Made by a program: the position numbers and the translations under genes. The notes beneath the pieces were generated by a model. That model saw only the letters and a list, made by a program, of their open reading frames with translations, had not been told where the DNA came from and did no database searches. 17,135 nucleotides of DNA from Discostella pseudostelligera. Taxonomy: Eukaryota > Bacillariophyta > Thalassiosirophyceae > Thalassiosirales > Thalassiosiraceae. Position 1 is the stretch's first letter; every line of letters begins with the position of its first letter. Where the stretch lies: the NCBI GenBank assembly GCA_036940085.1, contig JALLBK010000273.1:1-17135 (forward strand), given 5' to 3'. Below, in pieces: positions 3,027-16,997 of the stretch.

Positions 3027-6000
3027 ATGAATACAATGCCATCATCATCATCATTATCAACGCCGCCGCTGCCGCCGACGATGGAGGAAAGAAAGATCAT
3101 CATCATCATCGAGGCAGCATTTGACAAAGTGTCGTCCCTCATTCGCAATTCAGATTCATCATCCTCGTCATCCTCTCACAATGACAACAACAACGACGAC
3201 GACAACAAAGATGCCAATGACGATGAAATGATAAAGGGGGATGGAGGATGGGATGCTGATGAGGAGGGGACGACGACGACGTCGCGCAGTATTTCCGATT
3301 CGATCCGTCTTCAATTGTACGGGTACTACAAGTGTGCCACTACTACTACTACTATGGCCTCTTCCACCCACGAGATCGACAACGATTATGATGATATTGC
3401 TGCCTCATCACCACCACCACTACGACGCACGCCAAGACCATCCTTCTTTGATCCTGTTGGTCGAGCGAAGTATGATGCTCATACGCAAGTGTATGCAGAG
3501 CTATATCGTGAGGCAACAGTTGCTGCTGCTAACGCTGCTTCTATTGGAACCGCTGCAACTGCTGCAACTACTGATACTTCTGCCGGAACAGGGGATACTA
3601 CTACCATGTCTTCTACTTCCAGTACATTCGAGAAAATTCGACTATTGGCTATGCAACATTATGTCGAAGTTGCCGCCTCGCAGACCCATCATGCTGTTGG
3701 ACGGAAATGTGCCATTATTTATCAATCAATGCAAGCAGAGTTGGATCGTGCAGCGGCTGCTGTTGTTGCTGCTCGTACTGGTGCTGATGCTACTGATGTT
3801 GTCGATGAAAAATCACCGGGGGGGGAGGAAGCAGCTACCACCAAGAACAAGGCCAAGTTGACGACGGTTACCAATGGTGCAAATGATTCTTCCACTATGT
3901 CCACCACCACCTCCCGAAGGAAACACATCATTCCTCCTACTCCTTCCTATCCCACGACAACAACGGCAACAACAACAAAGCCAATCACCACCCTTCTACC
4001 TCCTCCCCTCCTCCCACGGGGTCAATTGGACGTATCCTTCCTCGATCTACTCTATGCACTCTCTCTATGTCTTCTTCATGGGATGTACACCCTTCTCGTC
4101 GAAACGATACTTGCCTCAACATTGCTAAATAAACTACTACCCAATGGTATCAAGATGGTATTGGATATGATTTCTGTAAGTAGTAAATTCCATCCACGAC
4201 GATGGGGACAATGGTATGAGAAGGAGATTGAACGAGTTTGGTTGGAAGAGGTGGATGTGGTTATTGCTCCGAAAGTTGTTGCTGCTACTAATACTAACAC
4301 GTCCGCCACCAAGCCAATCAACAAGAACCGCAACCACAGCAACAATATTGAAAATGCTAATTTGGAGGATGGTACTACTTGCCATCCTCCTCCTCGGCAT
4401 GTGGTGGTGGGATTATCCGTACGGACCCTCCTGGACTTGTATCTATCTACAAAATCATATCCCGTCGGGAGTGAGGTCATTATTGTACCACCGGTGTCGA
4501 TTCCTGGAATGGTGGATGTATTGGAATATCATGGCATGACATTGGTCCCGGTCGATCTTCCCACTGGCGGTGGTGGCGGCGGCGGCGGTGGTGGGGATGG
4601 AAAAGAGGAGGAAAAAGATGGCGAACATGAGCCACAGTCGACAGTATTGGAAACATTTATTCCATTAGATTGTGGTTACTGGGGATTGAATATTCCTGGA
4701 GTGGAGGCGGCCATCTCCCCCCGGACTGTGGCCATTCTAGTCGTGCATCCGTTTGGTACCGTCATGTCACCCTTGACAATGAATATGGTGCGTCGAATAG
4801 CGGAGGAACATGGAGCTGAAATTTGGGAGGATTGTGCTCAATGCTATACGGGCAGTAATGGTGTTGGTGGAGGAGGCAGCAGTAGCAGCAGCAGCAGTAC
4901 CCATCAAAATTCATTATCCAAAGAGTATGGACCTACGGCAACGATGATGAGAACTAGTACTGCTTGCACTACTACAAAACAACAGCAAGTAGGTTACACT
5001 GGGAGTCGTCATGTCAACATCTCCTTCTTCTCATTTGGACCGATCAAGACCGCTACTGCTCTAGGCGGTGGATTAGCCATCCTTCGTGAGAAGCCAAATT
5101 CTAAGAAGGAGGCCGAAGGTGCAACTAAAGTGTTGAACGCCGAAGAAACTGCAAGTACCATGAGGCGAATACAAGAGACGATGTATAGCTCCCAAACGAA
5201 CATTTCGTACCTCCTCCGAGTGGGGAAGTGCTTTGTCTTACATTTGATATCACAATCTCGTCTCTTCTGTGGATTGGTGAAATACGTAGTTGTTGATGTA
5301 ATTGGTTGGGATTATGATGACTTTGTTGTATCATTGCTTCGTGGTTTTTCGACGACGACTGCGTCAAGTACCACTTCTGCAACAACCTTGCACGGCAGAA
5401 ACAATGATGGCACAAATGGAAGGGGGTTGGGACGTGATTCATCATATGGATCTGGGGCAGAAGGAGGCAAATCATCTCTCAACAACAACAGTAATCAGTT
5501 ATTGATTCGGCAGCTGAGGAGACGTCCTTGTCCGGCATTATTTGCATTGCTTCATCGCCGGTTACTCGATTCGAAAAACACCATCAGTCGCGAGAGACAA
5601 CGTAGGAGTAGATGTCATTCATTTGCGAGGCAGCTGCTCTCGGATCTGAGGTTGAAGAATGAATTCGCTTTGTTTCAGAACGTCGAAGATGGAGCCTCTG
5701 ATAGCATGTATGGTTGGGTATTTCCGGTACTGCTCCCAGATCCTTTACGTGCAAGTGAGATACTAATGTCGAAAGGGTTCGATGCGCCTCGTGGAATGAC
5801 GCAACTGAAGCCTATCGTTACGTTCGATGGGAATGGCGCCGATAGATGTCCTCGGGCTCGTGTCGCCTTTGATCACATTTTGTACCTTCCGGTGACAAAC
5901 CCATCGTTCACTTCCAAGGATCGAAATGATTTTATTAACGCGTTGGCAGACGTTGTTGCATGTACCAAGGAGCTAGAAGCATCATGCTCCAACGCGCGCG

Positions 6001-9000
6001 TGGATGATTCAGGTCTCAGACATCACCATTCAACCTCACGGGACGGAGGTCAAAAGACACATCATCTCTCGTCTTGGAAAGGGATGGTCGTTTTCACTGC
6101 GATTGCCACCTTCAGTGAGTGGTATTTTCCCGTCCCGATCCGTTTCGCACTTCGATTGGCAATTGTGATGGCTCCTTGGATTGGTGCAGTGCTTGCCTGC
6201 ACTTTATTGTCGCTGCTCATACTCAGTCGATACATGGGCCCGATCTATTTGAAATCATCCAACACATTTGCAAATTACTGCGATATGTTATTTCGGTCGC
6301 CGTTTCAGCATGCGCGTGATGGGATGGATAATGAGAACGAGTTATTTTTGCAATCGAAAACGATTCTTGAACTAGAATCGACCAAAGTACCTCCCGGTGC
6401 TTCTGGGAGAGGGGGGCAAATCAAAGACAGTAACGAGTTGCCAGTGGTCATCGTCACGGGCGCTACCGGATTCATCGGGTCACTCCTTCTTCGTGAGCTC
6501 CTAATGCATCGACACGCGCTGTCGATAGGCGGTGCCATTGTGATTGTTCGGTCAAAGCGGGGCAAACCAGCCCGTGAGAGAATTGATCGTCTCCTATCCC
6601 AGCCGATGTTTGATTTTTTAGACGACACCGAAAAGCAGACTCTTCTGCATGTCATTGAAGGCGATGTCAGCCTTCCCAATTGTGGGCTGCGTAACGAAGT
6701 TATCAAATCTCTACGGCAACGGAGTATATCACATGTCTTTCATTGTGCAGCGGCTGTCAGCTTTTCGCAATCTCTTGAAGAGGCGGCGTTGTCAAATATC
6801 ACATCATCCTTGCAATTACTTCAACTGACGAAAAGTCTGCGGAGGGTAGACGCCAAATTCATATACATCAGCACCGCCTTTGTACATGGTGGAGATACGG
6901 GCTCAAAGTCCAAGCCTCTACCGCAGGAGACATTTTCACTGCATCCATATGATCCCGCGGAGCTCTACAAATCCATGCTTGGATCTCAGTCGTACGCCTC
7001 TGCTGCTATGAATGAACTTGGTTTTCCAAACACATATACATTCAGCAAATGCATATGTGAGCATCTACTACAAGCGAATGACGACGTCAATACAATTATC
7101 ATCCGACCTAGCATAGTTGGTCCTTCTGTTCAGGAGCCCTTCGAAGGGTGGTCAGGGGAGAAACCATCAACGATTGTCGCCGCGGCTTGCTTGTACCTCA
7201 TGTTTCCATTTAACATGTGGTGCTTCGGCAAGGATCTTGCTCCATTTGTACCCGTAGACGTTGTCTGTCGGTTTGTAATCTCGAAATCTTTTGGTCAACA
7301 ATGCAAACACGGAGAACCTGGTGACCTTGACGCATTTGAAGATGAAAAGAAAGAGACTACTTCATCGGATATCCATGAAAGGGCACGTAGCACCATAGCG
7401 ACCGTGTCGTGGGATGCTTCTTCACCACCGAAAACGACGTTTTCATGGGTAGCTTATGCATATACTGTCACACATCTTGGCGCTGTTTGCGGCCATGTAA
7501 ATCGTGTCATTGCGTATGCGGGGTTAATGTTCTCAACCCGATTGTTCCCATGGTTCAACTTCAATCTCGATACATTTCAGCGCCTACACTTTATGTTGGT
7601 CAGAAAATCACTGGATGCAGTATTGGATGTCTGCGCCCTACTCCCATGGAAGGCTAGAATATTCCGCGATTTGAAGACTTTGAGTCCTCTCATAGATCTG
7701 CCGATGTTATTTTTCCCCTTCGCAAATAAGAGTTTCTACTTCGAAAGTGACTTTGTTGTGCCATTAGACTTCAATGGCGACCGGTACATGTTTAGCTGCG
7801 CAGTTGCTGCTCATCGGTTCATTAAGAAAATTCAAGAGCAGAGGAGAAGGCGATCGGTCCGATGCAACTCAAATGTTCGAGAGTATAGCATTGATTCCAG
7901 CAGCTCAATCTTGATTGCTGGCGCAAATCATGTGAAGCCGGTCTCGGATTTGTGGTGGGCTCTCACACAGCCGAAGGGAAGCATGATCATTCGCTTTGGG
8001 GGATGGATCCTGTCGAAGATTTTTCGTTTCACCTCCATGGAGATTGAGGTAGACATTGCTTCCTTCGAGAGTCTTTCTAGAGCGCTATCGAACTCCTCCG
8101 AATGCGATACGCTACATGCTGTGATTGCACCAACGCATCGGTCTTTCTATGACTTCCTTATTGTCAGCTATATTTGCTTCTCCTTGCCAGAGTTGGGATT
8201 TGACATGCCTCACATAGCAGCCGCCTCAGACTTCGAGAGTATACCATTCATTGGCTGGCTGGCAAGGAAATCGCATGCTTTTTTCTTGAATCGAAGCGGG
8301 TCAAAGAGTGAACACAACCTCGAAGAAAATCTAATGAAAATAACAGAGGGCAATCGCGGCCCTGTATTCATCGAAGCTTTTATTGAAGGTAAGCGGAGCA
8401 GGAATGGGACATTCATCAAGCCCAAGACAGGATTTTTGCGTTGTCTTGCGGGAACTGCACTGGAATACATCATATTACCAATAACAATCAACTACGAAGG
8501 TATACCCGATCAGATAAGTTTGATGAACGAGGCAAATTATGGTCACCGCGAGGAAATGAGTCTGAAAAGGCTCTTACAGTGGATGTACAATGTTGTTGCT
8601 GGACGTGTATTCATTGGACGAGTTTATGTATCCGCATCAGAAGCTATTCCATTAGTAAGAGACAAGTGCATCACAGAATTAGCTCATACTATCCAAATTC
8701 GCCAACAGAGTCGAGTTGCGGTCTCCAGTTATCATATCAAAGCCACTTCATTGGTGTTGGGTTTATCTGAGGAAGTGGTTATCGAGGCCCTTGCGGAACT
8801 GGGATGTCAGCGCTGGCCGACGACATTGGAATCGGAACTTTCTTCCATAATACATGTACCCGAGGACGGCGACTTTCTGTGGGCCGCCATGTTACACTTT
8901 TGCCACCTGCTCGGGCCGTATCTTGCCGGCTCGCACCCGAAGTGGTCGTCGTGGATCTCCCCAAATGCCAGCAATATCGATGTCAATACTTGTCAACACA

Positions 9001-11102
9001 CAGCAGTGGACCAACTCTTGTCGAAGCTAATACATTTCTTTGAAGCCGCAGAAAATGAAGTGGATAAGGTGTTTGAATTGCTTCAGTCAAAAGGATTTGA
9101 TGCACCAGATGAAAGGCATATTATTCAGTATCTACCCATCGATGGTAATGTTCCAATGTTTCTAATGCAAACGGTCGTTAAAGAGAAGCTTGTTTCGGCC
9201 AACGTTTCCTACCTGAAATACAGCGCAGAACTAGCTCATCGGGCTCATGGGAGTAATACCTCACCAATATTCCAATTGACGTATGATACCGACGCTGAAT
9301 CTTTCGGTTCTTGGGGCTATCAAGACTCCTACTTCGTCTTGAATGTCATACCAAATGGACCGAAGTATGTCCAAATGAAAGGATCGCGTTACAGCATTAG
9401 TGGCAAACCACTGTTTGGTCTGATAACTTTTGTTGAAAATGAACTCAATGTTGTCATCGACCCCAAAGGTCAAACATTCTCGCATTGTGAAGACTTGAGT
9501 GCAATTCCAAAGAGCGATCTAACCTCTATTGACATAAGTAAAATCGCTGCATTGCTGGGATATGATGAAGGTAGAATATCTGTCGCACCATCAGACAGAG
9601 CACGACGTGGAACAGGTCATACACAGAAGGACATGTATGAATTACGGACTGGTCTCATCGGGTTTCGCGTGCCAGATGCAGTGGTCTGGCCCCAAACAGA
9701 TGTGGAAGTCGAAGCATTAGTATCTGCAGCCTCCGTGAACAATTGGTGTCTCATACCTTTTGGAGGTGGGACCAATGTGACTCACTCTACTCATTGTCCA
9801 CCGCGAGATATTGATCCAAGACCGATGATATCAGTGGACATGAAGTTAATGTCCCGTGTACTTTGGGTAAATGAAGAGGATGGTCTGGTCCACGTTCAAG
9901 CTGGCATTACGGGTCGTGAATTAATTCAAAATATGGAGAAGCTCGGCTTTACCATTGGACATGAACCGGACAGCTATGAATTCAGCACACTCGGTGGGTG
10001 GATTGCAACCAAAGCCAGCGGAATGAAGCAAAATCGATACGGAAATATCGAAGACATCGTTAGAGAAGTAAGTGTAATTGGAGCGAAAGGTCGCATGTCA
10101 CTCACACACGCTATGGAGAAGGCCTCCATTGGCAGATCCTCTGTGGGCATTGATCTAAAGTCAATCATGCTTGGATCGGAAGGATGCATGGGAGTCATCG
10201 TCAGCGCCGTGCTAAAGATATGGCCACTTGCCGATTCACGATCACACGAGAGCGTTCTACTACCTGACCTAGACGCAGGCATTCGATTTGTCAAAGATAT
10301 AACGAAAATGCGTGGACTGAAGCCAGCGAGTGTGCGACTACTTGACAACGATCAATTTCGACTTGGACAAGTGCTGAGAGGAGCAGAGTCGTCGTGGATT
10401 GAATCAATTCGTAGTCTTGCCATGAAGAGACTTGGTCGCACCTTTGGAAATTTGTCAGAGAATTCTATTGTGTGTGCGACGATTGCTTTCGAGGGAACCT
10501 GCACAGAGGTCAATCTACAGAAGAAATGTGTTCGAGATCTAGCCCATATTAATGGAGGCTTCCTAGCCGGATCTAAAGTCGGCAAGGCTGGATATGACCT
10601 CACATTTGCCATTGCGTATCTTCGCGACTTTGCACTAAGTTACAACATTTTGGGTGAGAGCTTCGAAGCCTTCGTGCCCTGGTCAAAGATACGCCAATTA
10701 ATCGGAGCGACGAAGCAACAAATTTGCACCGAGCACAAGATTCGGGCATTGCCTGGCAGTCCTTTCGTTTGCTGTCGTATCACACAACTCTACGACGATG
10801 GTGCATGCGTCTACTTCTACTTCAGCATGTCTATGAATGGAGTTGTCGAACCAAGTAAAGTCTTTTCATGCATTGAACGTTCAGCTCGACATGAAATATT
10901 GATCAATGGCGGAACACTAAGTCATCATCATGGTTTGGGGAAGATGCGATCAGAATTTGTTCCTGGGATTTATTCTGAGGGATATATGGATGCGCTCATT
11001 TCTATGAAGGCGGCAATCGATCCAATGAATACGTTTGGGGCAAGGAATGGCGTATTTGGTCGTGTACTTGCTGTGCCAGAAAAGAAAATGAGTAGATCCT
11101 AG
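3027..11102 (+). CDS. Giant ether-lipid synthase: ACBP / DegT / FAR / GNPAT / AGPS fusion
   Basis: One open frame of 2,691 residues. The start is the ATG at 3027; TAA at 3018-3020 closes the frame just upstream, and the TTG at 3021 is not a likely eukaryotic start. Modules in order are an acyl-CoA-binding domain (about 27-216), a DegT-type PLP fold (about 450-985), a hydrophobic segment (about 1017-1077), fatty acyl-CoA reductase (about 1139-1601), GNPAT-type acyltransferase (about 1630-1990) and alkyl-DHAP synthase (about 2095-2691). Catalytic motifs are present in each. Inferred role: acyl-CoA to fatty alcohol, DHAP to 1-acyl-DHAP, then exchange to 1-alkyl-DHAP, all on one chain. Low-complexity Ser/Asn/Asp/Thr/Gly tracts occur mainly in the first 900 residues. 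A second hydrophobic stretch lies at about 333-372. The C-terminus is -SRS, not a standard peroxisomal PTS1. No intron is needed. The FAR, GNPAT and AGPS assignments are firm; the combined pathway role is inference. Confidence 0.93.
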   Translation: MNTMPSSSSLSTPPLPPTMEERKIIIIIEAAFDKVSSLIRNSDSSSSSSSHNDNNNDDDNKDANDDEMIKGDGGWDADEEGTTTTSRSISDSIRLQLYGYYKCATTTTTMASSTHEIDNDYDDIAASSPPPLRRTPRPSFFDPVGRAKYDAHTQVYAELYREATVAAANAASIGTAATAATTDTSAGTGDTTTMSSTSSTFEKIRLLAMQHYVEVAASQTHHAVGRKCAIIYQSMQAELDRAAAAVVAARTGADATDVVDEKSPGGEEAATTKNKAKLTTVTNGANDSSTMSTTTSRRKHIIPPTPSYPTTTTATTTKPITTLLPPPLLPRGQLDVSFLDLLYALSLCLLHGMYTLLVETILASTLLNKLLPNGIKMVLDMISVSSKFHPRRWGQWYEKEIERVWLEEVDVVIAPKVVAATNTNTSATKPINKNRNHSNNIENANLEDGTTCHPPPRHVVVGLSVRTLLDLYLSTKSYPVGSEVIIVPPVSIPGMVDVLEYHGMTLVPVDLPTGGGGGGGGGGDGKEEEKDGEHEPQSTVLETFIPLDCGYWGLNIPGVEAAISPRTVAILVVHPFGTVMSPLTMNMVRRIAEEHGAEIWEDCAQCYTGSNGVGGGGSSSSSSSTHQNSLSKEYGPTATMMRTSTACTTTKQQQVGYTGSRHVNISFFSFGPIKTATALGGGLAILREKPNSKKEAEGATKVLNAEETASTMRRIQETMYSSQTNISYLLRVGKCFVLHLISQSRLFCGLVKYVVVDVIGWDYDDFVVSLLRGFSTTTASSTTSATTLHGRNNDGTNGRGLGRDSSYGSGAEGGKSSLNNNSNQLLIRQLRRRPCPALFALLHRRLLDSKNTISRERQRRSRCHSFARQLLSDLRLKNEFALFQNVEDGASDSMYGWVFPVLLPDPLRASEILMSKGFDAPRGMTQLKPIVTFDGNGADRCPRARVAFDHILYLPVTNPSFTSKDRNDFINALADVVACTKELEASCSNARVDDSGLRHHHSTSRDGGQKTHHLSSWKGMVVFTAIATFSEWYFPVPIRFALRLAIVMAPWIGAVLACTLLSLLILSRYMGPIYLKSSNTFANYCDMLFRSPFQHARDGMDNENELFLQSKTILELESTKVPPGASGRGGQIKDSNELPVVIVTGATGFIGSLLLRELLMHRHALSIGGAIVIVRSKRGKPARERIDRLLSQPMFDFLDDTEKQTLLHVIEGDVSLPNCGLRNEVIKSLRQRSISHVFHCAAAVSFSQSLEEAALSNITSSLQLLQLTKSLRRVDAKFIYISTAFVHGGDTGSKSKPLPQETFSLHPYDPAELYKSMLGSQSYASAAMNELGFPNTYTFSKCICEHLLQANDDVNTIIIRPSIVGPSVQEPFEGWSGEKPSTIVAAACLYLMFPFNMWCFGKDLAPFVPVDVVCRFVISKSFGQQCKHGEPGDLDAFEDEKKETTSSDIHERARSTIATVSWDASSPPKTTFSWVAYAYTVTHLGAVCGHVNRVIAYAGLMFSTRLFPWFNFNLDTFQRLHFMLVRKSLDAVLDVCALLPWKARIFRDLKTLSPLIDLPMLFFPFANKSFYFESDFVVPLDFNGDRYMFSCAVAAHRFIKKIQEQRRRRSVRCNSNVREYSIDSSSSILIAGANHVKPVSDLWWALTQPKGSMIIRFGGWILSKIFRFTSMEIEVDIASFESLSRALSNSSECDTLHAVIAPTHRSFYDFLIVSYICFSLPELGFDMPHIAAASDFESIPFIGWLARKSHAFFLNRSGSKSEHNLEENLMKITEGNRGPVFIEAFIEGKRSRNGTFIKPKTGFLRCLAGTALEYIILPITINYEGIPDQISLMNEANYGHREEMSLKRLLQWMYNVVAGRVFIGRVYVSASEAIPLVRDKCITELAHTIQIRQQSRVAVSSYHIKATSLVLGLSEEVVIEALAELGCQRWPTTLESELSSIIHVPEDGDFLWAAMLHFCHLLGPYLAGSHPKWSSWISPNASNIDVNTCQHTAVDQLLSKLIHFFEAAENEVDKVFELLQSKGFDAPDERHIIQYLPIDGNVPMFLMQTVVKEKLVSANVSYLKYSAELAHRAHGSNTSPIFQLTYDTDAESFGSWGYQDSYFVLNVIPNGPKYVQMKGSRYSISGKPLFGLITFVENELNVVIDPKGQTFSHCEDLSAIPKSDLTSIDISKIAALLGYDEGRISVAPSDRARRGTGHTQKDMYELRTGLIGFRVPDAVVWPQTDVEVEALVSAASVNNWCLIPFGGGTNVTHSTHCPPRDIDPRPMISVDMKLMSRVLWVNEEDGLVHVQAGITGRELIQNMEKLGFTIGHEPDSYEFSTLGGWIATKASGMKQNRYGNIEDIVREVSVIGAKGRMSLTHAMEKASIGRSSVGIDLKSIMLGSEGCMGVIVSAVLKIWPLADSRSHESVLLPDLDAGIRFVKDITKMRGLKPASVRLLDNDQFRLGQVLRGAESSWIESIRSLAMKRLGRTFGNLSENSIVCATIAFEGTCTEVNLQKKCVRDLAHINGGFLAGSKVGKAGYDLTFAIAYLRDFALSYNILGESFEAFVPWSKIRQLIGATKQQICTEHKIRALPGSPFVCCRITQLYDDGACVYFYFSMSMNGVVEPSKVFSCIERSARHEILINGGTLSHHHGLGKMRSEFVPGIYSEGYMDALISMKAAIDPMNTFGARNGVFGRVLAVPEKKMSRS
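3105..3674 (+). other. Domain: acyl-CoA-binding (ACBP-like) with low-complexity inserts
   Basis: Four pieces match the four helices of ACBP in order: IEAAFDKVSSLIRN (helix 1), SIRLQLYGYYKCAT (helix 2, compare LYxxYKQAT), DPVGRAKYDAH (helix 3, compare GKAKWDAW) and RLLAMQHYVEV (helix 4, compare AMKAYIxxV). The ligand residues known in ACBP (Tyr28, Lys32, Lys54, Tyr73) correspond to Tyr98, Lys102, Lys148 and Tyr212, all retained. Ser/Asp/Asn-rich, Thr-rich and Ala/Thr-rich inserts separate the pieces and stretch an 86-residue fold to about 190. The likely role is binding long-chain acyl-CoA for the downstream FAR and GNPAT modules. Confidence 0.8.
4374..5980 (+). other. Domain: DegT/DnrJ/EryC1-type PLP aminotransferase-like
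   Basis: The order of motifs fits the DegT family: VVVGLSVRTLLDLYL, then GSEVIIVPPVSIPGMVDVLEYHG, VPVDLPTGG, RTVAILVVHPFG and WEDCAQ. Asp602 is at the position that binds the pyridine nitrogen, with Gln605 nearby. SFGPIKTATALGGG supplies Lys674 at the Schiff-base position. The C-terminal subdomain resumes at about residue 895 with MYGWVFPVLLPDPLRASEIL. Poly-Gly and poly-Ser inserts lie before Asp602 and before Lys674, and a low-complexity insert follows the core. Key PLP residues are intact, so it may be active. The amino donor and acceptor are unknown, and no PLP step belongs to the known ether-lipid pathway. Confidence 0.8.
6075..6257 (+). other. Hydrophobic segment between the DegT and FAR modules
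   Basis: Residues about 1017-1077 contain VVFTAIATFSEWYF and then FALRLAIVMAPWIGAVLACT followed by LLSLLILS. This is long enough for one or two membrane passes or a membrane-inserted hairpin. It sits exactly at the junction between the aminotransferase-like half and the ether-lipid enzymes. Confidence 0.65.
6441..7830 (+). other. Domain: fatty acyl-CoA reductase (alcohol-forming)
   Basis: The NAD(P)-binding glycine motif TGATGFIG is at residues 1144-1151, followed by VFHCAAAVSFSQ and YISTAFVHGG. The catalytic YxxxK pair is Tyr1337 and Lys1341 (YTFSK), followed by IIIRPSIVGPS and the PVDVV segment. The FAR C-terminal region follows, ending in NKSFYFESDF and a basic helix. This is the standard order of alcohol-forming fatty acyl-CoA reductases, which use two NADPH to reduce acyl-CoA to a primary alcohol through a bound aldehyde. 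Confidence 0.95.
7900..9050 (+). other. Domain: DHAP/glycerol-3-phosphate acyltransferase (GNPAT/PlsB type)
   Basis: The HX4D catalytic motif is HRSFYD, with His1704 and Asp1709. It is followed by AAASDFESIPFIGWLAR and AFFLNRSG (motif II), FIEGKRSR (motif III, residues 1785-1792) and LPITINYEGIP (motif IV). This set and spacing match the DHAP acyltransferase/PlsB branch rather than the PlsC branch. The region after motif IV (LAHTIQIRQQSRVAVSSYH onward) resembles the helical C-terminal part of GNPAT/PlsB proteins. Expected product: 1-acyl-DHAP. Confidence 0.9.
9300..11099 (+). other. Domain: alkyl-DHAP (alkylglycerone-phosphate) synthase
   Basis: About 597 residues, close to the length of free-standing AGPS. 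The entry motif is FGSWGYQDSYF, followed by a SDRARRGTGHT segment. FAD-binding motifs are PFGGGTNV (2244-2251) and PDSYEFSTLGGW (from 2314), then ASGMKQNRYGNIED. Conserved arginines are present in ASVRLLDN (Arg2437) and AIAYLRD (Arg2533). The VYFYF strand and the histidine loop SHHHGLGK (His2633-2635) are intact. Every motif I know for AGPS is present, so activity is expected: exchange of the acyl chain of acyl-DHAP for a fatty alcohol. Confidence 0.97.
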
Positions 11103-11419
11103 AGCCGTTTACGTGCACAATCCTTTCTAAGAAATAACAACCAAGTTTTATCTTTATTACTTTCAATTTCAAGGAACCAAACAAACATATTGTAAACATA
11201 CACCGAATGCGGTGCACTTGTTGTAACAAATAATGGGTGCCAAGTACCGCCACCCGAGCAACAAAAGAACAGAGTTAGGGTGAGACGAGTATTTTTCTTC
11301 ACCGACAACCTCCAAGAACAAGCCCCCGTCCCCACACCTTCATGCTCTTGCCAATCAGGATGGTATTGCAGATTCGTCCTCCTGAACAGAGTCGATGAGA
11401 ATTGAGAGGCCAGTGCTTG
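11103..11419. other. Convergent intergenic region
   Basis: This is the 3' side shared by the giant gene and the protease gene, which face each other. It is AT-rich just after the giant gene's stop and includes TGTAAA near 11191, a possible polyadenylation element. No gene was seen. Confidence 0.5.
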
Positions 11420-13165
11420 TTAGTTCTTTCCTGCTTTGGACTTTGCCTGATTCTTGGCAGATTTTGTTGCTTGCTTTGATGATTTGGAGCCCGCACCTTG
11501 GGTATTACTTGTTGGGTTAGATGTAGGAGCATTTGTGGGGGTCGCTGTTGTTGGTCTGGGTGTTGATGGACTCATTGTTGGGTTGGAGGAGGTGGGCAGG
11601 GAGGTTGGCAGGGAGGTTGGCAGGAAGGTAGGCGGGGAGGTGGGCAAGAAGGTGGGCAGGGAAGTTGGCAGAGAGGTTGGCAAAGAGGTGGGCAGTGAGG
11701 TAGGGGAACTGGTTGGACTTGCAGTAGGCAATTGAGTTGGTACATTCGTTGGCTGAGAAGTTTTTTTCAGAAGCTTGTCAATTGCCCCACGCAAATTTAC
11801 AAGAGGACCAATGTGTGTGCTGGTATCTCCATGCTGAGGCGACCCAGTGTCAGAAAGTAGCTTTCGCACATCTTTAGGCTTCAGAGGCGCACCAAACTTT
11901 TGCATCGCGATGCCTTGAAGGTTTGCAACCGCTGCTGCCACAATCGGGCTAGCACTGGATGTTCCACTAAACGTACCCGTGTACCATTTATTTTGGTCGG
12001 AAAATCCGCTTGGATCTTTATATCCTTCACCATATCCTGTTGTCCATACACACTCACCCCAACCTTGTACATCCACACGGCTGCCATAAGTTGAATAAAC
12101 CAATTTCTCACGAGCAGAACCAAACCAACCGCCAGGACAATATAGTCCAGAGCCTCCTGCACCAACGATGATTGCCCCTGAATCTCGATTCGTCCTATCG
12201 TACTTGCGCTGACACATGTCGTCATCGAGATCGACGTTTCCATTCCCTGCAGCGGCAACAACAACAATTCCTTTTGCGACAGCTACCTGAGTGGCCTCAA
12301 AGACCGTGAGATCCTCCTCGGCAGGTCCGAACCTATTTTCGCTGTATGGGAACCCACAAGCCCATGTCTGCATCTCGAGTAGGATTACGTCGCCAGGCTT
12401 ACCGTCATCTACTGCAAGAAGGATTGCATTGGCCCGGTTGCTCCCAAGGAGTTTGGTTCGTTCGGGGGCTACCCTAGCTTTGGCACCATAACTGATGCCC
12501 ATCACACCGAAGACATTCGAAGTTCCAACCATCTCGCCTAACACTGCTGTTCCATGAAAATTATCTGGCCAAGGGTTGACGCCTTCATCGTTAGAATTCA
12601 CAAGCTCCTTTTCATTATGCATGACTGCCAAGTCTTCATGCTGAAGATTCCAGGCATACTCGACATCATAAATCGTAACACCTGTGCCATCCCCGCCGGG
12701 AAATGTCCATGAGTATTGTGCATCAATGCCATTGATCGTTTGCGAGTTCGGGAGGAGATAATTCTGTTTTGCAGTGAAGTCGGGAGTAACGTCGGGTGGA
12801 GGAGCATTCTCGGGAATAACAACATCAGTGATGACACCAGCGTACTGTTCCATGAGACTCTCCTTGAGGGGGGCATCCTCGCCCTCAGGAGTCACTACCC
12901 CATACCAGAGGGTCAAATCCGGCAACCCTGGTTCTACCGCACAAAGCTCTTTGAGCCTCTCAATCGGCAGGGTGAAAAGCGGTGTGACTGTACCCAAGGG
13001 CGCTAAAGCGGTCGCATCGTGCCCAGGCGCAACCTTAACATGAATATCTGCTGCATTAGCCATCCTGAAGAATAAGGAAGCGAGCAGGAAAACACTGGTG
13101 GTGGTGCTGGTGGTACTCCTACGAGCAGCTCCTCCACCTCCGACGAGTCCGACGAGTCCAAGCAT
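11420..13165 (-). CDS. Secreted subtilisin-family (S8) serine protease with PT stalk
   Basis: 581 residues from the ATG at 13165; the frame extends ten codons further only to a TTG. A signal-like segment near residues 24-33 (SVFLLASLFF) precedes MANA-AD, a plausible cleavage site. A prodomain-like region is followed by the S8 triad: Asp167 in TIYDVEYAW, His204 in NFHGTAVLGEMVG and Ser403 in SGTSSASPIVAAA. The oxyanion Asn308 is in AAAGNGN. NRDSGAIIVGAGG and YGSRVDVQGWGECV are further subtilase-like segments. After the catalytic domain comes a PT-rich stalk (about 471-552), then a Lys/Ser-rich tail (KSSKQATKSAKNQAKSKAGKN). The enzyme is probably an extracellular or cell-wall endopeptidase. The catalytic part looks to me more like bacterial S8 proteins than plant or animal subtilases, while the stalk is of diatom style. 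No introns are needed. Confidence 0.93.
   Translation of the reverse strand: MLGLVGLVGGGGAARRSTTSTTTSVFLLASLFFRMANAADIHVKVAPGHDATALAPLGTVTPLFTLPIERLKELCAVEPGLPDLTLWYGVVTPEGEDAPLKESLMEQYAGVITDVVIPENAPPPDVTPDFTAKQNYLLPNSQTINGIDAQYSWTFPGGDGTGVTIYDVEYAWNLQHEDLAVMHNEKELVNSNDEGVNPWPDNFHGTAVLGEMVGTSNVFGVMGISYGAKARVAPERTKLLGSNRANAILLAVDDGKPGDVILLEMQTWACGFPYSENRFGPAEEDLTVFEATQVAVAKGIVVVAAAGNGNVDLDDDMCQRKYDRTNRDSGAIIVGAGGSGLYCPGGWFGSAREKLVYSTYGSRVDVQGWGECVWTTGYGEGYKDPSGFSDQNKWYTGTFSGTSSASPIVAAAVANLQGIAMQKFGAPLKPKDVRKLLSDTGSPQHGDTSTHIGPLVNLRGAIDKLLKKTSQPTNVPTQLPTASPTSSPTSLPTSLPTSLPTSLPTFLPTSPPTFLPTSLPTSLPTSSNPTMSPSTPRPTTATPTNAPTSNPTSNTQGAGSKSSKQATKSAKNQAKSKAGKN
11588..11701 (-). repeat. 12-bp tandem repeat encoding the SLPT stalk
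   Basis: About ten imperfect units of 12 bp (GGTTGGCAGGGA on the plus strand) encode SLPT, FLPT or SPPT tetrapeptides in the protease stalk. The opposite strand is also open across it, giving an artificial GREV repeat. Confidence 0.9.
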
Positions 13166-15206
13166 TTTTGATGATGATAAACCCTGATTCCGCAAGATAA
13201 GTTGATGTGCGATGTGTATGTTCTTCGTGGTTGGAGGCGAAGAGATGTTGGGTTTGAGATCCTTGAAACAATGATGTTAGCTTGCGCTGGAAGTGATAAA
13301 TTATGTGATCGAGCGGCTGCTTGTCCACTGGCTTGAATGCCACAACTATGAAGCAGCCGCTGTAAGGGAAGGAATGGCGCCATCAGCGACAAATTGTTAG
13401 AAGTTTTGTCGCCAAGAGGTATTCGCTCCTGTAAATGATACCAGTTCCAACAGTTCCTCGCAGGAACGAAAGCGACGGGCAGCGAAGGTTTCATCTGGTT
13501 TCACGACTGGCGGCGAGCGAGCAGCGAGGGCGAGAGCGGCTCGCGCTGGGAGTGGGCAATAATCTTACGCCAGACAGGCGCCGTCACTCTTCTCGCGGAC
13601 GGTGTTAGTCGTCTGGCCAAAACTGGCCGTCGTCCGTCACGCTTCTGAAATTATGAGAATGGCCGGCCGGCGCGGACATTGTGGCGGGAAGCCTTCCGCC
13701 GGAATATTATGGCGGGGGTGCTCCTATCTAATAATGCCGCCGACGCCGCCTGCCCCCGATGCCAGGGCAGTGCGAGGCACTACTCTGCTACGAACTCGTC
13801 ATCACCACCACATCGAATGCCACTGCATCATTGCCGGCGTGCCGACGGTGTTGTGACGATGATTTGTGCTGGTGCTGGGGAAAGCCCCAATATCCAATAT
13901 CCCCAACCCAAAACCCAAGAGATGTCAAAGAAAAGAGGGATAGAGCGCCGGTTAGAGGCCCCGCCGACAGAATCACCGACAAGAGCACAAGATGGGGGGA
14001 AAAGAAGATGAGAATACACTTGTGAATTATCCTACAACCGCAACCCCGCCATTGAAATCGTCGTCAGATACTACCTCATCGACTTCTGGTTCTCTAAATA
14101 TTAAACAATGCGAATATTAATCAATGGGACCGACGGCAAATCATTTTCCCACCACACCCCAAAAGAACGCACCAATAATCGACTTCATATCAATCCACTG
14201 CACGCATAACTATAATAAGGATGAAGCATGATGTGCAACAAGCGAGACGTGGCAAAATGTAACTCACCCCCTCCACTCAATAATCAACACACAACACATG
14301 CTCTGGGAGGATACAACAATCGATGCCCACTGCTCGGGATATGCAACAAGCGACGCGTGGCAAAATACTATCCGCATATGCCGGGGAGAGATAAATCTAC
14401 GTCATAAAATGCAATACAAACATGCTCGAGGGGTGCAACAAATGAGGTCAACATGAATCATATGAATGAGAGTTATGCTATCTCATGTGTTTCATGATCT
14501 CATTATCTGTAGAAGATCAAGGTGGAGATATAGAAGGAGCAAATGATGTGGACGTCAAAAACACTGGCTGAAAAAGTTGTGAGAGAGGAGGATATCGCCG
14601 ACGGATCTCGCGAGCAAAGTGATTCATTCACCTTCACCATCATGCTTTTTTCACACCATTCACCAGCTACGATTTATATTAGAATGAAACAATTATTGCA
14701 CAGAGAGAGAGATATTCTGCATGATGTTGAGTCTACGTCTGCAGGATACTACTGGATGCCAAGTAATTGCATTTCATCTATCATCGATAACTCATATTGA
14801 TTGATGGATGTCATAATGATTTCGAGAGCCGGGATGTGCTTGTAATTCTTGGATTTGGTAGTAGGGACATGATGTGGATGCAATCGAGAGTTCGTGGATG
14901 CAACAATTTACCCATTCAAATGCGTTTCGAAAGCGGAATGATGAAATCTCTTATTAAAATGAAGTGGAACGGTGACGGAAACATATTGTTGCCGAGGTTT
15001 GTCACTTTCAATTCCTCTCATCTTGATGGTCTACAATGAGTTCATTAGATATATCAAACAGAGAACAAAAGCGACACAGCGAGATAGGAAGATATTATGA
15101 TAATCGTACATGCATTTACTATTATTAAACTGATAACATATTATTCGCATCACTTCTCCATTGGGATGATGAGTATTGTAGCTATGAAACGATCCGAAGA
15201 ATGAAA
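13166..15206. other. Gene-poor region between protease and LRR gene
   Basis: About 2 kb without a credible gene. 13500-13780 is GC-richer, with a GCGAGCGAGCAGCGAGGGCG stretch and a short hairpin (GGCGGGAAG next to CTTCCGCC, near 13683-13700). It should contain the protease promoter. 14020-15206 is AT-rich with direct repeats at 14226-14450. The short frames at 14543-14800 (85 codons) and 14797-15039 show no recognisable motif, so I do not call them. Confidence 0.5.
14226..14450 (+). repeat. Irregularly spaced direct repeats (CATGCTCGGG..TGCAACAA..GTGGCAAAAT)
   Basis: At least four imperfect copies of one unit start near 14226, 14297, 14328 and 14421. The two longest share TGCAACAAGCGA(GA)CG(C)GTGGCAAAAT (14234-14258 and 14342-14366). 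The other two keep CATGCTC(T/G)..GGGG..T(G/A)CAACAA. A further trace is CATATGCCGGGGAGA near 14375. Spacing is uneven (71, 31 and 93 bases), unlike a CRISPR array or a simple satellite. No function is known to me. Confidence 0.6.
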
Positions 15207-16997
15207 TTATTCCACTTTGCGCAGCTTTCGAGGTGACTCGAGTGTTTCAGAATTCTGAGCGTCTTGGTATTCGAGAAGCGAAGGTATGTTTTGAACAAGA
15301 CAATACATGGCAGAGAAACCGAGCTGATCTCTGCCGATCCATTCTACAACACTGGGCAAAGTTGTTGCAGGCATAGGTCCAAAAACATGTCCGACGGTGT
15401 CCTTGTTAAGAAGACACGACATGAGAAGCTTCCTACGGACAACTTCAGACTTGTCCTCTAGCTTGTTCATTATCAACAACGAAGCAAGTTCATCTGGACA
15501 CTTGGCGTAATCACTACTAGTGTATTCGAAGATATTCAATGTGTGGTTTGAGTTGCACACGCTGGCAATGCTCGTTTTGTCGCATAAGACGTTGGCAAGG
15601 GCATCCAAAGAGCTCGGCGAAATATCGACGTGGCCAATACTGAACTCTGTCAATGAATTGTTACTTGCTAGTGCAGCCACGAACCCAAGAATGACATCAT
15701 CATTGATTTTTATAACAATTTCACTGCAATCTTCAGCCCCTATTCGCAGTGACTTAAGTTTTGACTTTGATGTGAGGAGTAGGACATCAGTGAATGCACG
15801 CCATCCGTCGGTGGAAATGAAGGTGTTGAATTGAACGTCGAGGAGCCGAACTGTACTCATCTGCTTGGACAGCAGATTGACCAACAGATTTGCCCCTTCA
15901 TCATCAATACCACCATCGTTGCATACAAATTTTTTTTCCTCCAGAGCGGATTGAGATCCTAACATACGAAAGCACGTTGCCCAGCCGGTAGAAGTAATGG
16001 TTTGGTCATATGACATCGTCAATTTCTTCAAATTTGTATTACCGCCCAGAGCTTGAAAGATCTCAAATGCATCCTCATCATTGATGTTGCACTCTTCGAA
16101 TTGAAGTTCCAGCAACGACGAAGAAGGAGCTCCCAATCCACGAGAAAATTCTCGCCACCCTGCTGTTGTGATGTTGTTGCCGCCAATTGACATCGACTTC
16201 ATGTTTTGGTTGACGGCCAAGGCATCGCCCAGGGAAGCGGCACTTTCATCCCCCAAGTCGCCTAAAATTGTCATCCTGGGACTCGATAAGAAGATGAAAA
16301 AGAGATGCCAGCATGCTGCTGTTATGTGGTTACTCCAAAGGTCCAAAGTTTTGATACTGTTGTTCACGGCCAACCCGCTAATGAGTATTCCCATGCTCTC
16401 AATGCTGAGACAATTATGTGTTAAATCAAGTGTACGAATCCTACACTCTGGATTCTTGAGCAAAGTTCAAAGTGCTTCAAATCCCTTCCGTCCAATATCG
16501 TTTTCCCCCAAATCAAGTTCTAATAAGTTGTGCAGCCCCGGCATTGCATTCAATGCATTTATTAGGCCAGCAGCTTTCGTATCCCCGATATTATTGCGGT
16601 GCAGATTAATGATTTTTGGACCAATACAAATCAATACAACGGAGGTTGGTGTTTTGCTCAATGAATGGGGCGAGGATACGAAGGATGCGATGGAACGATT
16701 GTGAGCAAGCCAAATGAAAAGCGAATGGAATCCATTCGTATCTTCCAAAACACCCCGTATTTCCAATGTTCGCAAGTGAATGCTCCTGCTGATGGCGCGG
16801 CCTACTTGGTCAGCATAGTCCGCGTTCGTCACTTGAGAAGTAGACAAATGTAAGCCAGCAATGCCGGGATCATTCGCCAAGATCCGACTCACTGTTTCAT
16901 TATCTAGTGGGTGAAATTTCACCTTTGGTTGTTGATATCCAACAGCAACAGCCGCTTGAGGGCTGCCGTCGTCCGGTTGTACTTGCACCGTGGCCAT
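15207..16997 (-). pseudogene. Diatom-type LRR protein gene with one in-frame TGA
   Basis: A single frame runs from the ATG at 16997 to TAA at 15207-15209, 595 sense codons broken only by TGA at codon 177 (16467-16469). Both sides are in the same frame and the LRR pattern continues across the stop (LLELDLGENDIGRKGFEAL, stop, TLLKNPECRIRTLDLTHN). About nine degenerate repeats of the RNI/NLRC3-like ribonuclease-inhibitor type follow, for example KTLDLWSNHIT, KSMSIGGNNIT and RLLDVQFN. The C-terminal tail (SNHTLNIF, then LLIMNKLEDKSEVVRRKLL and VEWIGRDQLGFSAMYCLV) is the conserved end of a large diatom LRR family. The N-terminus (LDNETVSRILANDPGIAGL) also matches that family. The protein is probably intracellular and involved in protein-protein contacts. 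It may be a recent pseudogene, a polymorphic allele, a readthrough gene or a sequencing error. Confidence 0.8.

Follow-up and report, generated by a model that had tools for sequence, protein, structure and literature searches.

In animals, the three enzymes that initiate ether-lipid synthesis (FAR1, GNPAT and AGPS) are separate proteins. Enzymes of early ether-lipid synthesis are joined in several organisms, as excerpts of the papers cited here describe. FARAT of Dictyostelium (gene fatA) carries a fatty acyl-CoA reductase (FAR) and a dihydroxyacetone phosphate (DHAP) acyltransferase (AT) in one chain and is required for ether lipids (PMC7375469). Such two-module fusions are already published for ciliates, Phytophthora and Naegleria as well (PMC3143110, PMC7375469), and Thalassiosira pseudonana and Phaeodactylum tricornutum are stated to be without one (PMC3143110). 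The Myxococcus xanthus operon MXAN_1676-1675-1674 encodes AGPS, a FAR-GNPAT fusion and a third protein of the short-chain dehydrogenase/reductase (SDR) type; disruption of MXAN_1676 (AGPS) causes a slight drop in ether lipids (PMC9131029). We analyzed a 17,135-nucleotide stretch of the diatom Discostella pseudostelligera (contig JALLBK010000273.1, here called the window), in which one gene (3027-11102, plus strand) encodes FAR, GNPAT-type and AGPS modules together with a DegT-type enzyme predicted to use pyridoxal phosphate (PLP). From this combination in one protein, and because bacterial relatives of the PLP module often adjoin glycerolipid genes, we propose that an amino-containing ether lipid, so far unrecognized, may be produced in diatoms and dinoflagellates.

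The fusion and FARAT both have FAR and AT in one chain. FARAT is two-part (PMC7375469), as an earlier note on this DNA had stated. MXAN_1676-1674 and the Gemmatimonadota operons of AGPS, FARAT and SDR genes also place AGPS beside FAR-GNPAT, but as separate proteins and with an SDR-type third gene instead of a PLP gene. Another Gemmatimonadota operon (loci L012 and L025) has the same four enzyme types side by side; it differs in its order (AGPS, FAR-AT, PLP as three proteins) and in the PlsC-type gene that comes next. The earlier note had pointed to ElbD as a multifunctional ether-lipid enzyme of Myxococcus. ElbD is multifunctional, needed for ether lipids and built of FAR-like, acyl-CoA synthetase (ACS), acyl carrier protein (ACP) and AGPAT-like acyltransferase parts, but the excerpts of PMC9131029 mention neither an AGPS nor a PLP part in it. 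We rejected it as nearest counterpart because a Pfam scan of the fusion gave no ACS or ACP domain; FAR-GNPAT beside AGPS (MXAN_1675/1676, Gemmatimonadota) is closer. In the open-licence literature available as titles, abstracts and excerpts, we found neither a five-module protein nor an AGPS-FARAT operon with a PLP gene described, which is a limited absence.

The fusion protein and its family

The gene (3021/3027-11102) is a single open reading frame (ORF) with zero internal stops and 2,691 codons plus a stop. From the N terminus to the C terminus, it encodes an acyl-CoA-binding protein (ACBP) module full of inserts, the DegT-type PLP enzyme, a hydrophobic stretch, FAR, the GNPAT-type acyltransferase and AGPS. 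The earlier note had claimed one 2,691-residue frame with FAR, GNPAT and AGPS as consecutive modules, and the single ORF, the order of the Pfam matches and the match to a solved AGPS all bear this out. Pfam matches above the curated cut-offs are DegT_DnrJ_EryC1 (residues 547-689, 1.9e-10), NAD_binding_4 for FAR (PF07993, residues 1143-1416, 1.5e-45), Acyltransferase (residues 1697-1821, 9.6e-18), FAD_binding_4 (residues 2216-2357, 1.9e-30) and FAD-oxidase_C (residues 2408-2670, 8.4e-28). The note had also put two further domains, one acyl-CoA-binding and one DegT-type, ahead of these modules. The DegT part is confirmed; the ACBP match reaches 21.1 bits in the window, below the Pfam cut-off of 28.3, as simple-sequence inserts interrupt the domain. 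The homologue P0036 (2,240 amino acids) has an ordinary ACBP match (8.2e-17) and an ordinary DegT match.

The ACBP module occupies 3081-3704 (limits by eye), and the true start may be Met19 (3081), since two homologues (P0003 and P0004) begin with sequence resembling that from Met19 onward. The PLP module spans about residues 329-990 (4011-5996, limits from homologue comparison), which exceeds the Pfam hit. Runs of Ser, Thr, Gly and Asp/Asn insert into the ACBP and PLP modules (3027-5996), and P0036 is about 450 residues shorter overall. The FAR match lies at 6453-7274 (motifs TGATGFIG and YTFSK), with more FAR-module sequence to about 7826. The acyltransferase (8115-8489) contains HRSFYD (HX4D) and FIEGKRSR; it is assigned to the GNPAT/PlsB type from Pfam, NCBIfam and motif conservation, and its nearest NCBIfam family is PlsB, with a score below the NCBIfam cut-off. 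Its acceptor would be DHAP rather than glycerol-3-phosphate, judging only by the AGPS partner. The AGPS module (9303-11048) matches solved AGPS 4bby over its full length (3.5e-124, 418 bits, query residues 2093-2674) and the Dictyostelium AGPS structure 2uuu (2.8e-67), and is 43% identical to a Gemmatimonadota AGPS.

Homologues were sought with residues 1150-2600 (FAR to AGPS) among proteins of at least 1,480 amino acids, a limit that keeps separate short FAR, AT, AGPS or PLP proteins out of view. We took 120 of the 140 homologues, added the window protein, and called the module order of these 121 proteins with hidden Markov models built for this analysis. The presence of FAR, AT and AGPS partly follows from this selection, whereas the presence of PLP does not. 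The order PLP-FAR-AT-AGPS is found in 85 of 121 proteins, PLP-FAR-AT in 26 and FAR-AT-AGPS in 10. Because the full order recurs so often, a chance layout is unlikely. PLP Asp, PLP Lys and the AGPS motif SHHHG are all visible in 73 of the 85; among the rest, P0005, P0031, P0112 and P0118 start inside the PLP module, and eight full-order proteins are without the AGPS motif (six of these stop at a common ...YN(I/V)LG).

The nearest listed homologue is a D. pseudostelligera (centric diatom) protein with 95% identity over residues 1150-2600. Further diatom members come from Stephanodiscus, Thalassiosira, Skeletonema, Cyclotella, Fistulifera, Nitzschia and Seminavis, and dinoflagellate members from Symbiodinium, Cladocopium and Prorocentrum. 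Triparma and Pycnococcus (P0076) are also represented, the latter without a matched PLP module. Some members carry AGPS-type names in databases. The earlier note knew of no five-module version in an alga; judged by these sequences, the fusion is a family of diatoms and dinoflagellates, neither artefact nor unique.

Separate genes could have been merged by the assembly or gene model, and the window's own gene is known from one assembly only. The frame is uninterrupted, however, and other genomes show the same order. It also occurs in four proteins whose names are of transcript type (P0035, Chaetoceros by taxid; P0048; P0071, Thalassionema by taxid; and P0099); each covers PLP through AGPS as a single frame, although the SHHHG end is missing from P0071. 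These transcript-named proteins answer the worry better than genomic frames alone, and we regard an artefact as hardly credible.

The 26 PLP-FAR-AT proteins were considered as a second gene or short paralogue, and this was rejected. By eye, 24 of their tails end at or just past two common places (...GFLR/K or ...W..V, like WLKV; the exceptions are P0107 and P0115), and the seven of these proteins that were placed in the large PLP tree are scattered among long forms. From these shared ends and this scatter we infer that they are frames cut at introns, not a second type.

In the tree of AGPS sequences, all fused copies (diatoms, dinoflagellates, Triparma, Pycnococcus and Seminavis) cluster together with support 100/99, and the sequences of six Gemmatimonadota, of guinea pig and of Dictyostelium fall outside this cluster. 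This is compatible with a single fusion origin, a thin test with only two standalone eukaryotic AGPS included, and it does not demonstrate transfer from Gemmatimonadota.

The early ether-lipid steps of animals are described as peroxisomal (excerpts of PMC9131029), as is FARAT, which carries SKL (excerpts of PMC7375469). We searched the 87 members with SHHHG for patterns of peroxisomal targeting signal type 1 (PTS1, C-terminal) or type 2 (PTS2, first 60 residues). None was found (0 of 87), and a peroxisomal location was rejected on this basis. The fusion thus differs from FARAT in having no C-terminal peroxisomal signal and from animal AGPS, which has peroxisomal targeting, in a way that concerns location and not catalysis. 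A hydrophobic stretch, perhaps a hairpin, lies at the PLP-FAR junction (residues 1018-1073, 6078-6245; crude hydropathy windows up to 2.2). Such segments recur there in the 12 members viewed, by the same crude windows, which are no topology prediction, and the protein is probably tethered to a membrane outside the peroxisome.

The PLP module

The PLP module is the most informative part of the fusion. The earlier note had named the DegT domain and left it unexplained; its PLP residues are conserved. Residue counts were taken from an alignment of all 121 proteins, with sequences that have a letter in the column as denominators. Asp602 (in EDCAQ, 4830-4832), which we take to contact the PLP ring nitrogen, is kept in 108/108, Ser669 in 107/107 and Lys674 (SFGPIKTATALGG, 5046-5048), presumably the Schiff-base lysine, in 109/109. 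The lysine and aspartate stand in SFxxxK and EDxA contexts in the fusion and in its bacterial relatives. Invariant columns in the PLP module are also found in alignment A4, in which the window protein is not a row. We placed no weight on Arg833, an apparently invariant column among the other rows, where R occurs in 77/112, perhaps through misalignment.

Catalytic residues of the other modules are conserved as well. In FAR, the Ser and Tyr are kept in 120/120 and the Lys in 121/121 (motifs TGxxGFxG and YxxxK); in AT, the His, Asp, Glu (of FIEG), Gly and Arg are each kept in 121/121 (motifs HX4D and FxEGxRSR). The three histidines of SHHHG in AGPS (H2633-2635, 10923-10931) are found in 90/91, 88/91 and 88/89, Tyr2596 in 89/91 and Arg2437 in 97/98; we assume that these are active-site residues. 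Because the catalytic residues are nearly invariant, no module of the algal fusions, PLP included, looks dead. This agrees with the earlier note, which had seen all catalytic motifs. Retention of Asp, Ser and Lys is the pattern of an aminotransferase rather than of a pyridoxamine phosphate (PMP) dehydratase. Because the three are invariant where aligned, we prefer an aminotransferase by this rule.

The protein could be an ordinary alkyl-DHAP synthase with a catalytically idle PLP module kept as scaffold or dimeriser. The PLP module of Triparma P0077 is strongly diverged (branch 2.32) and has no Pfam DegT match, and 10 of the 121 proteins have no PLP match. Asp, Ser and Lys are nonetheless invariant where aligned across diatoms and dinoflagellates, and even P0077 keeps the Lys and Asp. 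We judge an idle module to be quite improbable.

The module has standalone bacterial relatives. Among 8,000 scored candidates, the PLP profile gave six proteins of about 400 amino acids at E <= 1.3e-69, with ordinary DegT enzymes only from 3.9e-14. Five of the six (P0123-P0127) look bacterial and standalone. The bacterial proteins open with MIPRxxxDIxWxDL. A segment like it follows ACBP in the algal modules, and in the window protein the PLP module begins there (PRGxLDxxxxDL). Among solved chains, those closest in sequence are ArnB, AHBA synthase and perosamine-type enzymes, which match only about residues 40-197 of 398; for the DegT two-domain fold, the sequence match is limited to part of the profile. 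ArnB and perosamine synthetase, whose substrates we take to be nucleotide sugars, belong to the same family and have the same lysine and aspartate motifs; only the first half of the PLP module matches them by sequence.

Two PLP trees give different pictures of a common acquisition of the module by diatoms and dinoflagellates and do not settle the matter. In the large tree, the dinoflagellate module falls within bacteria and away from the diatom one (forks 88-92); the smaller tree joins the two with support of about 15. Of the algal proteins, the large tree contains only a selection, and it leaves out second locus copies, L129, L130, L143 and L144. P0001 and P0009, in which a weak second match stretched the span past the 700-residue limit, are outside both trees.

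Bacterial gene neighborhoods

A scan of prokaryote genomes gave at least 550 PLP relatives, and the best 80 loci were kept as the first set. In Gemmatimonadota, a FAR-AT match at 1e-30 or better occurs in 5/298 genomes. These five and L012, which was outside the draw, make six loci, all with AGPS alongside. The PLP gene of the L012 and L025 operon (AGPS, FAR-AT, PLP, PlsC-type; PLP at 4008-5204 in L025) overlaps both neighbors by 4 bases, and L108, L109 and L110 have SDR as the third gene after AGPS and FAR-AT (L111 is cut off). Of the five loci with downstream sequence, two thus continue with PLP and PlsC and three with SDR.

In the first set, 14/80 loci have a GlpD-, PlsC-, OlsC/LpxO-like, PlsY or AGPS/FAR-AT gene within 5 kb. 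An ALO-type FAD oxidase is adjacent or fused in 8/80, and one locus (L083) has a weak acyl-ligase match. Adjacency also appears in further groups. In the class of L087, PLP occurs in 4/39 genomes and is followed by a GlpD-type gene in 4/4 (3/3 without L087's own genome). In the phylum of L041, PLP occurs in 12/235 genomes, with a PlsC-type gene adjacent in 9/12 (8/11 without L041's own). The exceptions are G690 (OlsC-like gene on the opposite strand), G826 (PLP at the contig end) and G736 (weak PLP match). The only one of 296 genomes in the phylum of L051 with PLP is the one in which PLP is fused to a GlpD-type glycerol-3-phosphate dehydrogenase (L051, 9986-12835). In 14 stretches outside the first set, the tested families make up 10/22 adjacent ORFs, including the OlsC-like gene next to G690 PLP, versus 2/82 others (Fisher p 1.3e-6); those two come from L131 and L141, whose adjoining PLP gene was not retained as a frame by the script. 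All neighbor types are above their Pfam cut-offs.

Other loci have a different makeup. PLP is fused or adjacent to an ALO/DprE1-like FAD oxidase in Acidobacteria, Planctomycetes and one Bacteroidete (L038 at 9944-12592, L039 at 6515-9229, and L027, L032, L035, L048, L065 and L080). In Proteobacteria, a hydroxylase that most resembles the ornithine-lipid hydroxylase OlsC, with a score below the cut-off, lies near PLP; L062 and L068 have both genes on one strand, and L042, L086 and L088 have them on opposite strands. AMP-ligase-like and Lgt-like genes (named by eye) lie upstream of the L051 fusion. L029, L033 and L058 come from metagenome bins titled Bordetella parapertussis, of which the PLP gene and its neighbors were examined; they group with Betaproteobacteria, and the titles may be wrong.

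The GlpD-type genes can also be read in terms of an ordinary ether-lipid line in which the PLP module makes something destined for a head group or a side product: either serinol phosphate, with free DHAP as the substrate, or an amine derived from the FAR fatty aldehyde. At L036, L051, L087 and L131-L133, where no AGPS is in view, PLP lies next to or is fused with a GlpD-type gene, and the product of GlpD would be DHAP. Transamination of DHAP to serinol phosphate has a precedent in the N-terminal domain of RtxA (excerpts of PMC3222319), and PLP directly precedes FAR in the fusion. The fatty-aldehyde version would leave the GlpD-, PlsY- and PlsC-type neighbors at loci without FAR unexplained, and the free-DHAP version the joining of PLP and AGPS in both bacteria and algae. 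We consider such a line unlikely, though it deserves to be taken seriously.

A candidate amino ether lipid

FAR, AT and AGPS form the established route from DHAP, two acyl-CoA and NADPH to alkyl-DHAP. An alkyl-DHAP assembly line is well supported by the predicted modules. We propose that the fusion is a membrane-tethered, non-peroxisomal multifunctional enzyme that would assemble the ether-lipid core and then aminate it. ACBP would hand over acyl-CoA, FAR would reduce one acyl-CoA to a fatty alcohol, AT would acylate DHAP with a second acyl-CoA, and AGPS would exchange the acyl group for the alcohol, giving alkyl-DHAP. Channelling between the modules and a fixed ratio of fatty alcohol to acyl-DHAP, as the earlier note had proposed, are plausible.

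The PLP module would then act as an aminotransferase on a DHAP-type ketone, most likely alkyl-DHAP. AGPS chemistry requires the C2 ketone, and because of this amination is placed after AGPS. The product would be 1-O-alkyl-2-amino-2-deoxyglycerol-3-phosphate, and later N-acylation would give a ceramide-like ether lipid. In bacteria, the ketone would have two fates, SDR reduction or PLP amination followed by PlsC-type acylation. GlpD would provide DHAP, and in bacteria without AGPS the PLP substrate would be DHAP or acyl-DHAP. The proposed reaction is likened to that of RtxA by reaction, not sequence; RtxA makes serinol phosphate/serinol from free DHAP (excerpts of PMC3222319). The enzyme activities and the tethering are all predictions from sequence, among which the PLP substrate and product are the least certain. 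Our reading as a whole, an extra-peroxisomal assembly line with PLP amination of a DHAP-type ketone to a 2-amino ether lipid, stands just short of an even chance.

Several observations weigh against this reading. Alkyl-DHAP cannot serve as the PLP substrate in every case, since most of these bacterial loci have no AGPS near the PLP gene. Some 57/80 first-set loci have none of the tested neighbor families within 5 kb (some contigs end sooner), and 3/14 of the lipid neighbors (L042, L086 and L088) are on the opposite strand. The reference neighbor genes were chosen from the first set itself, and the further groups were then examined. Only PlsY passes NCBIfam's own cut-off; the GlpD-, AGP-acyltransferase- and OlsC-type neighbors score under the respective thresholds and no NCBIfam family matches the L041-type acyltransferase, so that the exact functions of neighbors other than PlsY are probable assignments. 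The 10 FAR-AT-AGPS proteins have no PLP match; some may be cut models and Pycnococcus P0076 may be a genuine case. A diatom amino ether lipid was not found among the open-licence literature matches listed, which were available as excerpts. The closest solved relatives of the PLP enzyme are mostly nucleotide-sugar enzymes.

This last point, together with the many loci that have no tested lipid neighbor, would suit a PLP module that acts on an unrelated substrate (e.g. a sugar or head-group precursor) and is joined to ether-lipid enzymes incidentally. Lipid-gene neighborhoods recur across several phyla, however, and the sugar aminotransferase match covers only about residues 40-197 of 398. An unrelated substrate seems a distant prospect.

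The assembly searched has 963 contigs totalling 23.0 Mb and may be incomplete. Within it, AGPS, the PLP module and FAR-AT each have the fusion as their sole match; further acyltransferases are present as well. The Pfam scan recognized no alkyl-DHAP reductase domain in the fusion, and a search of the assembly with the Gemmatimonadota SDR yielded no more than a weak match (3.9e-5, 28%). This is consistent with the PLP module replacing SDR, but is little evidence because other eukaryotes use a different alkyl-DHAP reductase. Downstream of the fusion and convergent with it, the window contains a subtilase (11423-13195, minus strand; Peptidase_S8, 3e-16) with a PT/PTS-rich repeat tail at the C terminus. 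Two leucine-rich-repeat-like frames (15210-16463 and 16470-16997, both minus strand; the second below the Pfam cut-off) are perhaps one gene.

We tentatively extend the proposal to a pathway shared by diatoms, dinoflagellates and some bacteria, which we hold to be somewhat more doubtful than probable. It would aminate the alkyl-DHAP ketone instead of reducing it, giving sphingolipid-like ether analogues. The products would be 1-O-alkyl-2-acylamido-2-deoxyglycerol phosphates; algae would form them with an extra-peroxisomal giant enzyme, and Gemmatimonadota with an AGPS-FARAT-PLP-PlsC operon. Serinol backbones exist in nature, as serinol-based lipids occur in tunicates and N-acyl serinols in gut bacteria, according to excerpts of the literature. 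If the proposal is true, the committed ether-lipid steps up to alkyl-DHAP would be located in a single extra-peroxisomal protein of major marine and freshwater algae, and the choice between reducing and aminating alkyl-DHAP would be a branch point that may lead to a new lipid class.

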